A stretch of 64,000 bases of DNA from Nodosilinea nodulosa PCC 7104. GTDB taxonomy: Bacteria > Cyanobacteriota > Cyanobacteriia > Phormidesmidales > Phormidesmidaceae. Below the pieces are notes generated by a model. It ran no database searches, had not been told where the DNA came from, and saw nothing but the letters and a program-made list of their open reading frames with translations. The stretch spans positions 4,265,984-4,329,983 of the forward strand of contig NZ_JH976537.1 of assembly GCF_000309385.1 (NCBI RefSeq), given 5' to 3'. How positions within the stretch are numbered: position 1 is the first letter of the stretch; every line of letters begins with the position of its first letter. The position numbers and the translations under genes were made by a program. This document shows, piece by piece, positions 30,995-36,036 of the stretch.

Positions 30995-31138
30995 CCGTCA
31001 AGTTGCGGGAGTAGAAGCCAGAACTAACCCAGTCAAGGGACTGTGCAACTATAGGAATTCTTGCCAAGGCTTACTGAGAAAAGATCTCTGCTGCATAATT
31101 GGTACATACCAGCCGTTAACCCTGTGCAGCCATCACCC

Positions 31139-32443
31139 ATGACTAACCCCCAGGACATGGAAGAGTTACTCGATGAGATGTACAACGCTTTTACCCCAAC
31201 ACCGTTGCAGCCAGGGGATCCAGCGTATGTAGATTGTCGAGCAGTACGGGGGGATGAAGACGTATTGGAAGACTTGGGGCGTACGGTAAGGCGATCTAAC
31301 GATTTAACCTACCAGCTGTACTCGGGCTATCGAGGCTCAGGAAAAACAACCGAACTGCTGCGATTGAAGAAAGATTTGGAAGATCGTGGTCATGTGGTAG
31401 TTTACTTTGCTGCTGACGAAGCCGATCTTAGCGTCCAGGATGCTCAGTACACAGACATCCTCCTAGCTTGTACACGCCATTTATTGAGAGGGTTAAAGCA
31501 GGCAAATCCGGCACCTATCCTCAACTGGTTAAAGGCTCGACTGCAAGATTTAAACGCAATCATGCTTACAGAGATTAACGTAGACGACGTTAATCTAGAG
31601 GTAGGTTTAAAGGAATTTGCAAAAATAACGGCAGCTGTACGGGCAGAGCCTGGCCAGCGTCAGAAAATTAGAGAGCAGCTAGAGCCACATACGGAAACAC
31701 TGATTCAGGCGCTGAATGCTTTTATTGTGGATGGTAAAAGCCATTTGCCCGAAAAAACTAAGCTGCTCGTAATTGCAGATAACTTAGATCGCATTGTGCC
31801 AATTTTCAGAGACAACGGGCGCAGCAACCATGAAGAGATTTTCTTAGACCGCCACGAACAGCTAAAAGCACTGGATTGTCACATCATTTATACAGTGCCT
31901 ATTTCAATGATTTATTCTCGCTGGGCAACAGAGTTAAAAGATAACTATGGCATCCCGCAAGTGTTGCCGTCCATTATGGTGCGCCAAGAAAATGGAGACA
32001 CTTATCAACCTGGGCTGGAGATTCTGATAACCATTATTCAGCTGCGTGTACCAGAGCGCTTGCAAGATGCGCTTGTACCAAAAGTATTCGAGTCAGAAGT
32101 AGTACTTAATGAGCTTTGCTTGGTCAGCGGAGGGTATGCGCGGGATCTAGTGCAGCTAATGCAGGAAGCCATCAATAAAACTGATACATTACCTATTCGC
32201 GAGAGAGCTGTACGACGGGCTGCTGACGCTTTGCGGGATGTGTATCGCCGTGCAGTAGAAGAAAACCAATGGGCAGTTTTAAAGGAGGTAAGAGACACAA
32301 AGGAAATTGACAACGACGAAGTGCAACGCAGCCTACTTTTCAGCCGTTGTGTGTTGGAGTATCGCTATTTTGACAAAGAGGGTGCTAAGCAAACCTGGTA
32401 CGATGCCCATCCAGTACTTTGGAGGGAGTTAGATGACAGATAG
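31139..32443 (+). CDS. P-loop ATPase, AAA/STAND-like, accessory operon
   Basis: The 434-residue protein has Walker A GYRGSGKTTELLRL (K69) and a Walker B-like strand KLLVIADNLDRIVP (D214, D217). The rest includes HIIYTVPISMIYSRW, which fits a sensor-1 strand, and a helical C-terminal part. It looks like a stand-alone NTPase of the AAA/STAND kind found with sensor proteins in cyanobacteria; its action is unknown. ATG 31139 is used (ATG 31157 also possible). The base composition is more AT-rich than the flanks. It overlaps the TPR gene by 11 bp and its tail holds that gene's ribosome site GGAGGGAG (32421-32428). Confidence 0.75.
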   Translation: MTNPQDMEELLDEMYNAFTPTPLQPGDPAYVDCRAVRGDEDVLEDLGRTVRRSNDLTYQLYSGYRGSGKTTELLRLKKDLEDRGHVVVYFAADEADLSVQDAQYTDILLACTRHLLRGLKQANPAPILNWLKARLQDLNAIMLTEINVDDVNLEVGLKEFAKITAAVRAEPGQRQKIREQLEPHTETLIQALNAFIVDGKSHLPEKTKLLVIADNLDRIVPIFRDNGRSNHEEIFLDRHEQLKALDCHIIYTVPISMIYSRWATELKDNYGIPQVLPSIMVRQENGDTYQPGLEILITIIQLRVPERLQDALVPKVFESEVVLNELCLVSGGYARDLVQLMQEAINKTDTLPIRERAVRRAADALRDVYRRAVEENQWAVLKEVRDTKEIDNDEVQRSLLFSRCVLEYRYFDKEGAKQTWYDAHPVLWRELDDR

Positions 32444-34655
32444 GTCAGCAGCAGCTGAAGTTAATCAGTTAATGAAACCGGAATCCTTAACATTCGATGA
32501 TGTAGGTGAATGGAGTCCTAAGAATGTAGAAGCGCTGAATGATTTATTACGTGCATTAAGGCGTAAGAAGAATTTCGGCCTGTTCTTTGTTCAGTGTAAT
32601 CCAGCCCAAAGCCAACGTATTATTGGAGAAATACAAGAAAATCTATCTCGGAAGCGCTTAGTGAAGTTTGAACTTAATAGGGATAGTGAGACACTGTATG
32701 ATGAATTGATACAATCTTATGATAATCAATCATTTGAGATAGCTTGCATAACGGGTGTAGAGCAAGCCATGTACAGGTACGAGGATACTCAGCGCTTAGC
32801 TGGGTGGACCTCTGAAGAAATCTATAACTATAGCTGGAAAGGTTTGCCACCTCTATTAAGCCATTTAAACAGGCAAAGAGAAGCTTTTGAGGAGCACTTA
32901 CCTATTTCGCTTGTTTTTTTAGTGCCAAGCTTCGTAATCGATTATTTTGTGCAACGGGCACCAGATTTCTTTGATTGGCGTTCAGGCTTCTTTAAACTCG
33001 AAGACACCTTCGAGGATGAGCAAAAATCTTTAAATAAATTAATGAATAAAGATTATGATGAGTATATTTCTCTGACGCCCGAAGAGCGAGTGGAGCGGGT
33101 CTTAGATATTAAAGATAAAATTCTTCAAAACAAAATTATCGACTGTGAAAAAAGGTCTGATTTATTGCGGGAACAAGGGCGGCTATTCGAAAGCGGTGGG
33201 GATATCGTTAGAGCATTAGACTGTTATGAAAGAGCTCTATTTGAAAGTTCTAATAATTATAAGGCATGGCATAACAAAGGGAAGTTACTTCACGATTCGG
33301 AAAGGTTCGAAGAAGCAATAGAATGTTATGAAAATATTCTAGAACTAAAGCCAGACTTCCATTTTGCATGGGCAGCACGAGGCGTTGCATATCTCAATCT
33401 AAAAAAATACGAGTTGGCATCTCATGATTTCGAAAGATTTCTAGAGCTGCAACCGCAGTTTGGTAGTTTTTGGATCATTCAAGGTGCTCTGCTATTTAAG
33501 CTTAAAAAGTACGTTGATGCAATCGAAAAAATTGATTATGGTTTATTTAAAAGTGCTTCTGAGCTGCAGTTCGATAATTGTTATGCATGGACAACGCGGG
33601 GAGACGCATTCCTAGAGTTAGAACGTTTTAAAGAAGCGATTGGCAGCTATGATCAAGCGATAAAAATTCAGCCTGAGTATTATGCAGCTTGGCGTGGGCG
33701 AGGTGATGCGCTTAAAAATCTAGAATTTCAAAAGGAAGCAATTGAAAGCTATGATCGCGCCTTAGAAATCAAGCCCGAATTGCACTATTTATGGGCCAAA
33801 AAAGGCAGTTTGCACTTAGTGCTAGGTGAGTACAATGAAGTGTTGAGGAGTTGCAACAAAGCTTTAGAAATCAAGCCTGATTTATATGATTGCCTCGGGC
33901 TCTTAGGTGCAGCACATAATGAGTTAGGTCAACACGAGGAAGCAATAAAATGTTTTGATGATGCTTTAACTATAAGGCCTGATTTTTTTGCAGGTATAAG
34001 AGGTAAGGGAATCGCTCTTTATTCTCTTGGTAATCATCAAGCTGCTCTCAATTGCTTTAAGGAGTTAGTCCAAATTTGTCCAGAAGACAAACACGATTTA
34101 AACAATCTAGGGTTTTTGACATTGTCGCGATATTCATATGGCTTGAAAGCTGTGCTTGGAAAGCCTCTACTCATTCGTATTCCTTTGGGATTTTCTATTC
34201 TCCAGTTTCCTGCTTCTAGTAAAATTGATCAGATAAACTGTCAAGATGCTTTAGAATTTTTTGATGCGGCATTGAAGATTGACCCTAAGCTTACTTTAGC
34301 TTGGGCAAATATTAGCTTTCCTGCTTACTATTTGGGCCGACATCAAGATGCTCTGAAATATTGTGATAGAGCCCTTGAACTTGATTCTAAAAATAAGGAA
34401 GCAATGAATGATGTTATTTACAGTAATCAAGGCTCCATTCTTCTTCAGCTTCACAATCCTGTATACTCTCTCAACGCCTTTGATACTGCCCTTACGCTTA
34501 ATCACCGACTTGATGAAGCATGGATAGGCAAGGGCACTGCCCTGTCTCAACTTAAGCGCTACGACGAAGCGATTCATAGCTTTACTCAAGCGCTCCATCT
34601 AAATCACCCCCTTGCCCAAGCCAATCTTGATTCTCTTCAAGATTGCATCTATTAA
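32433..34655 (+). CDS. Large TPR protein with NTPase-like N-terminus lacking Walker A
   Basis: The 740-residue protein has two parts. Residues 1-~215 show the strand pattern of a P-loop domain (FGLFFVQCNPAQSQRII, RLVKFEL, FEIACITGVEQ, ISLVFLVPSFVIDYFVQ) but no GKT/S, so it may be an inactive partner of the upstream ATPase. From about 240 to 735 there are about twelve tetratricopeptide units, for example AWHNKGKLLHDSERFEEAIE. TPRs usually bind partner proteins. Translation is coupled to the ATPase gene by the 11-bp overlap. The gene is the most AT-rich of the window. Confidence 0.75.
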   Translation: MTDRSAAAEVNQLMKPESLTFDDVGEWSPKNVEALNDLLRALRRKKNFGLFFVQCNPAQSQRIIGEIQENLSRKRLVKFELNRDSETLYDELIQSYDNQSFEIACITGVEQAMYRYEDTQRLAGWTSEEIYNYSWKGLPPLLSHLNRQREAFEEHLPISLVFLVPSFVIDYFVQRAPDFFDWRSGFFKLEDTFEDEQKSLNKLMNKDYDEYISLTPEERVERVLDIKDKILQNKIIDCEKRSDLLREQGRLFESGGDIVRALDCYERALFESSNNYKAWHNKGKLLHDSERFEEAIECYENILELKPDFHFAWAARGVAYLNLKKYELASHDFERFLELQPQFGSFWIIQGALLFKLKKYVDAIEKIDYGLFKSASELQFDNCYAWTTRGDAFLELERFKEAIGSYDQAIKIQPEYYAAWRGRGDALKNLEFQKEAIESYDRALEIKPELHYLWAKKGSLHLVLGEYNEVLRSCNKALEIKPDLYDCLGLLGAAHNELGQHEEAIKCFDDALTIRPDFFAGIRGKGIALYSLGNHQAALNCFKELVQICPEDKHDLNNLGFLTLSRYSYGLKAVLGKPLLIRIPLGFSILQFPASSKIDQINCQDALEFFDAALKIDPKLTLAWANISFPAYYLGRHQDALKYCDRALELDSKNKEAMNDVIYSNQGSILLQLHNPVYSLNAFDTALTLNHRLDEAWIGKGTALSQLKRYDEAIHSFTQALHLNHPLAQANLDSLQDCIY

Positions 34656-34679: not shown

Positions 34680-35375
34680 ATGGAACAGCCAACTGATTAC
34701 CGCCAGATGGTCTTAGACACCATTACCCATGCTCTCACCAGTGACCCCAACCCAGAGGTGCGGGCCAAAGCTGCAGAATCTCTAGGCAAACTGGGCGAGG
34801 CAGCAGTAACACCACTGCTGCTAGATGCTTTGCCAGACCCTAACCAAACGGTCCAGTGCAACATCATCCAGGCATTAGGGCAGCTCGGCGACGAATCAGC
34901 AATACCCAAATTGCTTGAAGTGCTTGAGACAGGCACTGCAGCTACCCGCCAAACAGCAGCAGCAGCATTGGGGCATATTGGCACAAGGGCTACAATTCCA
35001 GGCTTGCTCAAAGCCCTTGAAGACGAAGCCCCCGCCGTTCGGGGCACAGCAGCCAGTGTTCTAGGAGCAATCGGTGCCGAAAGCGCCATTCCAGCATTGC
35101 TCAATTTACTTACAGACTCAGACCCAACCGTCGAAGCTCATGCCGTCGAAGCGATTGGTGCCATTGGCTCACAACTGGCCACAGACACCCTGGTCAAACT
35201 GATTACCGACCCAAATCCTCATCTGCGGCAGAATGCTGCGATCGCCCTCAGCAAACTGGGACAAAAAGATACCATCCCTCTGTTAGTCCGTCTCTTACAA
35301 GACCCAGATGCTACCGTTCGAGAAACAGCTGTAGAAGCTTTGGGCACCGCTGCTCAAGACTATTCCGTAGCTTGA
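34680..35375 (+). CDS. HEAT-repeat protein
   Basis: The 231-residue protein is built of about seven HEAT/PBS-lyase-like repeats of ~31 residues, each of the form PxVRxxAAxALGxIGxxxAIPxLLxxL. It starts at ATG 34680, 24 bp after the TPR gene. HEAT scaffolds bind proteins or, in the phycobilin-lyase branch, chromophores; no phycobiliprotein gene is near, so a scaffold role is more likely. The next gene continues the HEAT theme 4 bp after the stop. Confidence 0.8.
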   Translation: MEQPTDYRQMVLDTITHALTSDPNPEVRAKAAESLGKLGEAAVTPLLLDALPDPNQTVQCNIIQALGQLGDESAIPKLLEVLETGTAATRQTAAAALGHIGTRATIPGLLKALEDEAPAVRGTAASVLGAIGAESAIPALLNLLTDSDPTVEAHAVEAIGAIGSQLATDTLVKLITDPNPHLRQNAAIALSKLGQKDTIPLLVRLLQDPDATVRETAVEALGTAAQDYSVA

Positions 35376-35379
35376 GGGC

Positions 35380-36036
35380 TTGCGAGTGTCCATTACTCCA
35401 GACCAGCAAGCAGAAATCGTCAACATTCTCTGCCAGCTTTTGCTGGAATCTGACAATTACCGAATTAGGGCAAGGGCTGCAAAATCTCTAGGTCGGTTGG
35501 GCCTTCCGGAGGCGATTCCAGCGTTGTGTCAGGCCGTATCAACTGACACCCAAGTTCAAGTACGCTTGAATGCAATGGATGCCCTGGTCTTAATCGCAAA
35601 ACCTCAAATGGCTGAATCACCCAAAAACCAACCCACCTTTAACATTGGTAATGTCGGCAACCTCAATACCGGAGATGTCACCATTCAGGGCGACCAAGTT
35701 GGCTTTCAATACAACTACACCACCAGCCCTGAACTTCAGACAGCAATTTCAGACCTGAAAGCTGTCCTCAATGACCTACAAGCTCAAAATCCATCAGTCG
35801 CTACGGAATCTCAAGCCTTAACCATTATCGATGCAGAGTTTACCGAAATTCAGCCAAGCGGAGGGTCCAAGCTGACTACCTTACGACAACAGCTCCTGAA
35901 CCCAGAACGGCACTTTCAGGCTAGCAAAGCAACCCTTGTGGAAGTGTTGAAACACTTCTTAGAAGAAAGCGTTTGGGCGAAAGCGTTCGTTACCTACATC
36001 GATACGATGAGTTCAACTCCAGAGGAAGGTGTCTAA
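35380..36036 (+). CDS. HEAT-repeat protein with Gly/Asn-rich linker and helical tail
   Basis: The 218-residue protein starts at TTG 35380 or GTG 35386. Residues ~1-75 are two HEAT units. A strand-rich segment FNIGNVGNLNTGDVTIQGDQ follows, then a helical tail (about 110-218). Similar GN-rich segments before a helical domain occur in cyanobacterial effector-associated or signalling proteins, which is a loose resemblance recalled from memory. It closes the ATPase-TPR-HEAT-HEAT operon. Confidence 0.65.
   Translation: MRVSITPDQQAEIVNILCQLLLESDNYRIRARAAKSLGRLGLPEAIPALCQAVSTDTQVQVRLNAMDALVLIAKPQMAESPKNQPTFNIGNVGNLNTGDVTIQGDQVGFQYNYTTSPELQTAISDLKAVLNDLQAQNPSVATESQALTIIDAEFTEIQPSGGSKLTTLRQQLLNPERHFQASKATLVEVLKHFLEESVWAKAFVTYIDTMSSTPEEGV

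Follow-up and report, generated by a model that had tools for sequence, protein, structure and literature searches.

The window analyzed here, a stretch of 64,000 nucleotides from Nodosilinea nodulosa PCC 7104 (contig NZ_JH976537.1), contains two overlapping forward-strand genes that belong to a conserved two-gene unit. The first encodes an AAA+ ATPase with an intact active site, and the second a tetratricopeptide-repeat (TPR) protein headed by a predicted AAA+ domain from which the nucleotide-binding loop has been lost. On balance, we favor the view that the two products are subunits of one AAA+ machine, in which a pseudo-AAA+ adaptor would be combined with a catalytic ATPase.

Organization of the gene pair and its products

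Gene 2 is an ORF on the plus strand (32433..34655) whose product of 740 amino acids consists of the pseudo-AAA+ domain fused to TPRs. Upstream of it, gene 1 (31139..32443, +) encodes a STAND/ORC/TnsC-like AAA+ ATPase of 434 amino acids, as judged by the starts of homologues, Pfam and a predicted model. Because close homologues begin there, the start of gene 1 was placed at the ATG at 31139, which is most likely the real one, rather than at the TTG listed at 31061. The two genes share 11 nt (32433..32443, +; ATGACAGATAG), and a Shine–Dalgarno-like GGAGG is found 7 nt ahead of the gene 2 ATG (32421..32425, +). From the overlap, the two genes may be translationally coupled. An earlier sequence-only reading of this DNA had drawn on the ORF at 32433–34655, the segment VQCNPAQSQRII at residues 53–64 and the GSGKTT of the neighboring gene, all of which are present in the sequence. 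Two genes for HEAT-repeat proteins follow gene 2 (window 34680–36036), the gaps being no more than 25 and 5 nt; the latter of the two contains a NIGNVGNLNTGDVTIQGDQVG stretch. These genes were considered as a third component and rejected, since a search of loci with related pairs gave no homologues of them.

Alignment of the gene 1 product located an intact Walker A motif, GYRGSGKT, at residues 63–70 (31325..31348, +) and a Walker B motif, DNLD, at residues 214–217 (31778..31789, +). Gly63, Gly66, Gly68 and Lys69 of the former and Asp214 and Asp217 of the latter are invariant across 50 homologues. The predicted model (pLDDT 93.0) has a STAND/ORC/TnsC-type fold and was matched by structures of TnsC, ORC/Cdc6, archaeal Walker-type ATPases, CED-4 and plant NLR resistosomes. 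In Pfam, KAP_NTPase was matched at 22.6 bits (cut-off 20), and AAA_16 scored higher, at 29.3 bits, which is below its own cut-off of 32.6. PADLOC gave weak matches for the 50 ATPase members, to PDC-S20 in 31 (best 6.5e-8) and to mad8 in 15, which may reflect only a shared ATPase core.

The TPR arm of the gene 2 product extends over residues 260–740 (33210..34652, +) according to Pfam TPR matches; the proposed fusion to TPRs is borne out by TPR_1, which was matched in nine stretches of the protein with an E-value of 1e-72. Close relatives are 59–68% identical to the window protein in the N-domain; the TPR part diverges faster, with 31–50% identity in its longer alignments. In one relative (L033) the N-domain is near that of L031 (79%), yet the TPR part is nearer to L037 (51%) than to L031 (38%). 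These comparisons suggest that sensor arms have been exchanged on a constant core, repeat regions being hard to compare. A TPR/NTPase/WD40 architecture is present in three long relatives, and in several of the long N-domain–NTPase–WD40 relatives the ATPase gene is still adjacent. At L085:979-5802 and L086:196-5193, the protein begins with the pseudo-AAA+ domain and also contains WD40 repeats and a further NTPase that carries a P-loop; in L086 this further NTPase is nSTAND1.

Pairing and distribution of the two genes

Ninety-two distinct relative genes had enough upstream sequence for adjacency to be tested, and in 82 of them an ATPase gene lies immediately upstream on the same strand. At three further loci (L119, L121 and L126) the ATPase gene is instead the next gene downstream of the N-domain gene, and in one copy from the same genome as the window the adjacent ATPase had been hidden by the choice of ORF start, which brings the total with adjacency to 86. 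The genes of a pair overlap in 49 of the 76 pairs measured, 17 of them by 4 nt. Genome sampling was almost entirely cyanobacterial, and among 386 cyanobacterial genomes the N-domain was present in 88 (E up to 0.001), the ATPase in 84 (E up to 1e-20) and both in 82, so that six genomes carry the N-domain without the ATPase and two the ATPase without the N-domain. When distances within one family were set against those within the other, the correlation was 0.94, whereas 2000 permutations reached no more than 0.22; linked inheritance contributes in part to this correlation. Strong support for a functional pairing comes from co-occurrence and correlated divergence as well as from the order and overlap of the genes. 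The two proteins may form the hetero-oligomer of a catalytic and a regulatory subunit that the sequence-only reading had suggested.

N-domain genes without a neighboring ATPase gene were found at L053, L073–L075, L084 and L130. At L073 (4603-9909), L074 and L075, the gene that comes after the N-domain gene encodes a sensor-like protein of ∼1,200 amino acids. At L053:5167-5805, a lone N-domain ORF of 212 amino acids, possibly a remnant, lies 3′ of an rbcL-like gene and is itself followed at some distance by transposase-like ORFs. In five genomes (G159, G206, G348, G438 and G493) the order is a gene for an N-domain-repeat protein, the ATPase gene and a short third gene, the product of which (∼180–220 amino acids) comprises little beyond a pseudo-AAA+ domain.

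The N-domain could instead act independently as a receptor for nucleic acid or some other ligand and signal to the ATPase, a downstream switch with which it would share no ring. A nucleic-acid receptor role has been proposed for inactive STAND domains by Kaur et al. (PMC8195603), and the orphan N-domain genes at L073–L075 adjoin a gene for another large protein. At the great majority of loci, however, the N-domain goes together with an ATPase gene, and it is the repeat arm, not the N-domain, that varies and resembles a sensor; we therefore regard an independent receptor as improbable, at about one chance in five.

The N-domain often occurs in several copies among the 88 genomes that carry it, and several paralogues can be found within one genome. 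A plasmid search with the window N-domain gave no match, and the corresponding search with the ATPase as the query found plasmid-borne pairs. One of these is carried on a conjugative plasmid of Acaryochloris (L141:1-12096), where adjoining genes are annotated as NB-ARC, TIR and TPR. Another, more diverged and with its genes overlapping by 4 nt, is located near CHAT and TPR genes on a plasmid from Acidobacteriota (L140:6214-8924); there the ATPase ORF as annotated aligns to the ATPase model from position 140 onward only, the P-loop part falling outside the ORF. In the genome of the window itself (C1:1664500-1672500; L136:1287-5934), the ATPase gene of a paralogous pair is split by an insertion that places a transposase-like ORF of 573 amino acids between positions 226 and 234 of the ATPase model.

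TPR cofactors are common among AAA+ chaperones, and the pair could be a housekeeping chaperone or assembly factor in which the TPR protein serves as the client-binding cofactor and no conflict is involved. That the nearest relatives of the pair have no neighboring genes in common counts in its favor, but presence in only 88 of 386 genomes, the several paralogues in one genome, carriage on plasmids, the insertion of a transposase-like ORF into one ATPase copy and the STAND-like nature of the ATPase all speak against it, and we consider a housekeeping role unlikely, somewhat more so than an independent receptor. The patchy distribution, the paralogues, plasmid carriage and the one plasmid copy near NB-ARC and TIR genes are hints of an accessory system; the genomic context is weak evidence for a role in defense.

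Predicted fold of the N-terminal domain

An alignment of 67 relatives was used as the AlphaFold2 input for the N-domain, some 210 residues long, of the gene 2 product. The resulting model had a mean pLDDT of 86.9 and a pTM of 0.82 and was confident for residues ∼24–235; this model, the AAA+ matches and the 67-member alignment define the pseudo-AAA+ domain (32502..33137, +). It begins with a helix, strand 49–54, helix 57–70, strand 76–80, a helix and strand 103–107, and continues with helices, strand 159–164, further helices, strand 185–188 and three final helices. This is the element order of AAA+ proteins, predicted here as a five-stranded α-β-α core with a helical lid. The best Foldseek matches of the model were AAA+ proteins (Hda and ORC), with TM-scores of ∼0.4. 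All 50 of the VIA-align matches listed were likewise AAA+ proteins (Z 10.7–12.0 over 136–176 residues); TnsC was the top match among those listed (Z 12.0, 162 residues, 3.6 Å), and NSF, p97 and ORC were also among them. The sequence-only reading had proposed a pseudo-NTPase domain and had named fold prediction as its own test, and the predicted structure is indeed a P-loop (AAA+) fold. The limits first given, residues 1–215, are too narrow for this domain: the AAA+ match covers residues ∼23–235 and includes the small helical lid.

Neither Pfam, NCBIfam nor PADLOC gave a convincing family match for the N-domain, alone or via the 67 relatives, and the PADLOC matches seen were isolated and weak. 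Searching solved structures with an N-domain profile likewise gave no meaningful match by sequence. That the domain is some other α/β Rossmann-like fold, AAA+-like in AlphaFold2 and structure comparison without common descent, is allowed for by the missing sequence link to any P-loop family by fold comparison alone being no proof of descent and by TM-scores of only ∼0.4, but with AAA+ proteins in all 50 listed VIA-align matches and the same order of elements, lid included, it is the least probable of the explanations weighed here.

Loss of the nucleotide-binding site

The site of the lost Walker A motif lies at VQCNPAQSQRII (residues 53–64; 32589..32624, +), where strand 1 (residues 49–54) ends and helix 1 (from residue 57) begins. 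Only two residues separate strand 1 from helix 1 in the N-domain model, compared with five in the model of the partner ATPase (strand end and helix start at 54 and 57 versus 63 and 69), from which it follows that the P-loop has been deleted. The Walker A motif is thus missing, as had been claimed, but by deletion and not merely by substitution. GK[ST] was found at this site in none of the 67 aligned N-domain members, nor was a P-loop found in the first 300 residues of any of 134 relative ORFs. With GxxxxGK[ST] absent from the family, the N-domain is therefore not an active AAA+ ATPase. The alignment places an eroded Walker B motif, IACITGVE, at residues 103–110 (32739..32762, +), in strand 3 and the following turn. 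Position 107 is variable and the first acidic residue is not conserved; Gly108 and Glu110 are kept in 64 and 56 of the 67 members.

Other residues are conserved across the family. The motif NRQR precedes strand 4 (Asn146 to Arg149; 32868..32879, +), with the asparagine present in 64/67 and the arginine in 65/67 members. A family signature, DFFDWRSG (residues 178–185; 32964..32987, +), was located by alignment at the junction of helix 4 and strand 5; within it, Asp178 is conserved in 64/67, Phe179 in 65/67 and Trp182 in 64/67. Candidate arginine fingers are Arg149 (65/67) and Arg183 (41/67). Arg149 stands 16 residues ahead of a conserved proline that follows strand 4, and the window ATPase has an arginine placed likewise; Arg183, near strand 5, is not invariant.

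Comparison of the N-domain with the ATPase by hhalign, both whole and cropped, gave no significant match at the level of sequence. A column-profile test ranked the structurally expected offsets around strand 4 first (1/408 and 1/420) and the expected offset around Walker B second to fourth, and placed the diagonal joining helix 1 and strand 2 in the top 12 of 85,680. Two of the offsets had been picked by eye beforehand, and this agreement is suggestive only. Because hhalign gives no sequence homology, a common origin of the two domains would rest on the predicted fold together with weak agreement of motifs.

Comparison with known systems and proposed mechanism

Pairs of active and inactive STAND proteins have already been described. 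Kaur et al. (2021) reported nSTAND2, an operon in which one gene encodes an active STAND protein and the other an eroded one, and proposed a mixed ring for it (PMC8195603). By its published description, this system resembles the pair here in having adjacent active and eroded NTPases, the inactive member with a variable C-terminal part. That part mostly carries GT4 or HEPN effectors in nSTAND2, although not universally, whereas TPRs or a TPR–NTPase–WD40 arrangement are found here; the arginine finger is kept in both nSTAND2 proteins, whereas the N-domain has only candidate arginines. The inactive STAND domains iSTAND and iSTAND2 were described by Kaur and colleagues (2020, 2021; PMC8195603, PMC7159879). 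They belong to MoxR–vWA ternary systems that are common in cyanobacteria and share with the present pair an inactive STAND-type domain. Those systems have MoxR and vWA genes alongside, whereas this is a two-gene unit with a STAND/ORC-like ATPase as the partner; no MoxR or vWA gene was found at this locus, where the neighboring ORFs are the HEAT-repeat genes and unrelated genes.

In ORC, too, active and inactive ATPase subunits are combined in one AAA+ assembly (as cited in PMC8195603), and ORC/Cdc6 structures match both models obtained here. ORC proteins are, however, DNA-binding replication initiators without a TPR sensor arm, and in the present pair the P-loop itself is deleted. STAND switches of the NLR/Apaf type combine an NTPase switch with a repeat sensor, as here, and CED-4 and NLR structures match the partner ATPase; in the unit described here, switch and sensor are instead on separate proteins, which a dead AAA+ domain would join. 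In the literature searched, this exact pair was not described; on paper it follows the same principle as nSTAND2 and iSTAND with different arms on the inactive member.

In the mechanism that we propose, a split switch and the most economical reading of the pair, gene 1 would provide the catalytic STAND/ORC/TnsC-like subunit, and the AAA+ domain of gene 2, having lost its nucleotide-binding loop, would serve as a non-catalytic adaptor. The pseudo-AAA+ domain would pack on the ATPase, probably as part of a mixed ring or dimer, and so tie the enzyme to the TPR arm, to which a trigger molecule or partner protein would bind. Binding of the trigger would move the pseudo-subunit and allow the ATPase to assemble in an ATP-driven manner, as in STAND switches. 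Contact between the two products, control of hydrolysis, sensing through the TPR arm and participation, probably as an accessory switch, in a conflict or stress response are our inferences. Neither protein showed an effector or output domain. A wider generalization, that the dead AAA+ domain is a universal plug joining exchangeable repeat sensors (TPR or TPR–nSTAND1–WD40) to a shared ORC/TnsC-like ATPase, and that the pair is thus a modular two-protein immune switch of cyanobacteria with sensing and ATP hydrolysis in separate subunits, is offered as a speculative possibility, the odds of which we put at rather less than even.

The N-domain has no convincing match among Pfam, NCBIfam or PADLOC families, yet it is present in 88 of the 386 cyanobacterial genomes sampled. 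If the pairing is physical, the arrangement of active and inactive AAA+ subunits, familiar in ORC and put forward for nSTAND2, would be extended to a dead subunit that holds the sensor, and the pair would offer a compact two-protein model for the control of partners by a pseudo-ATPase.
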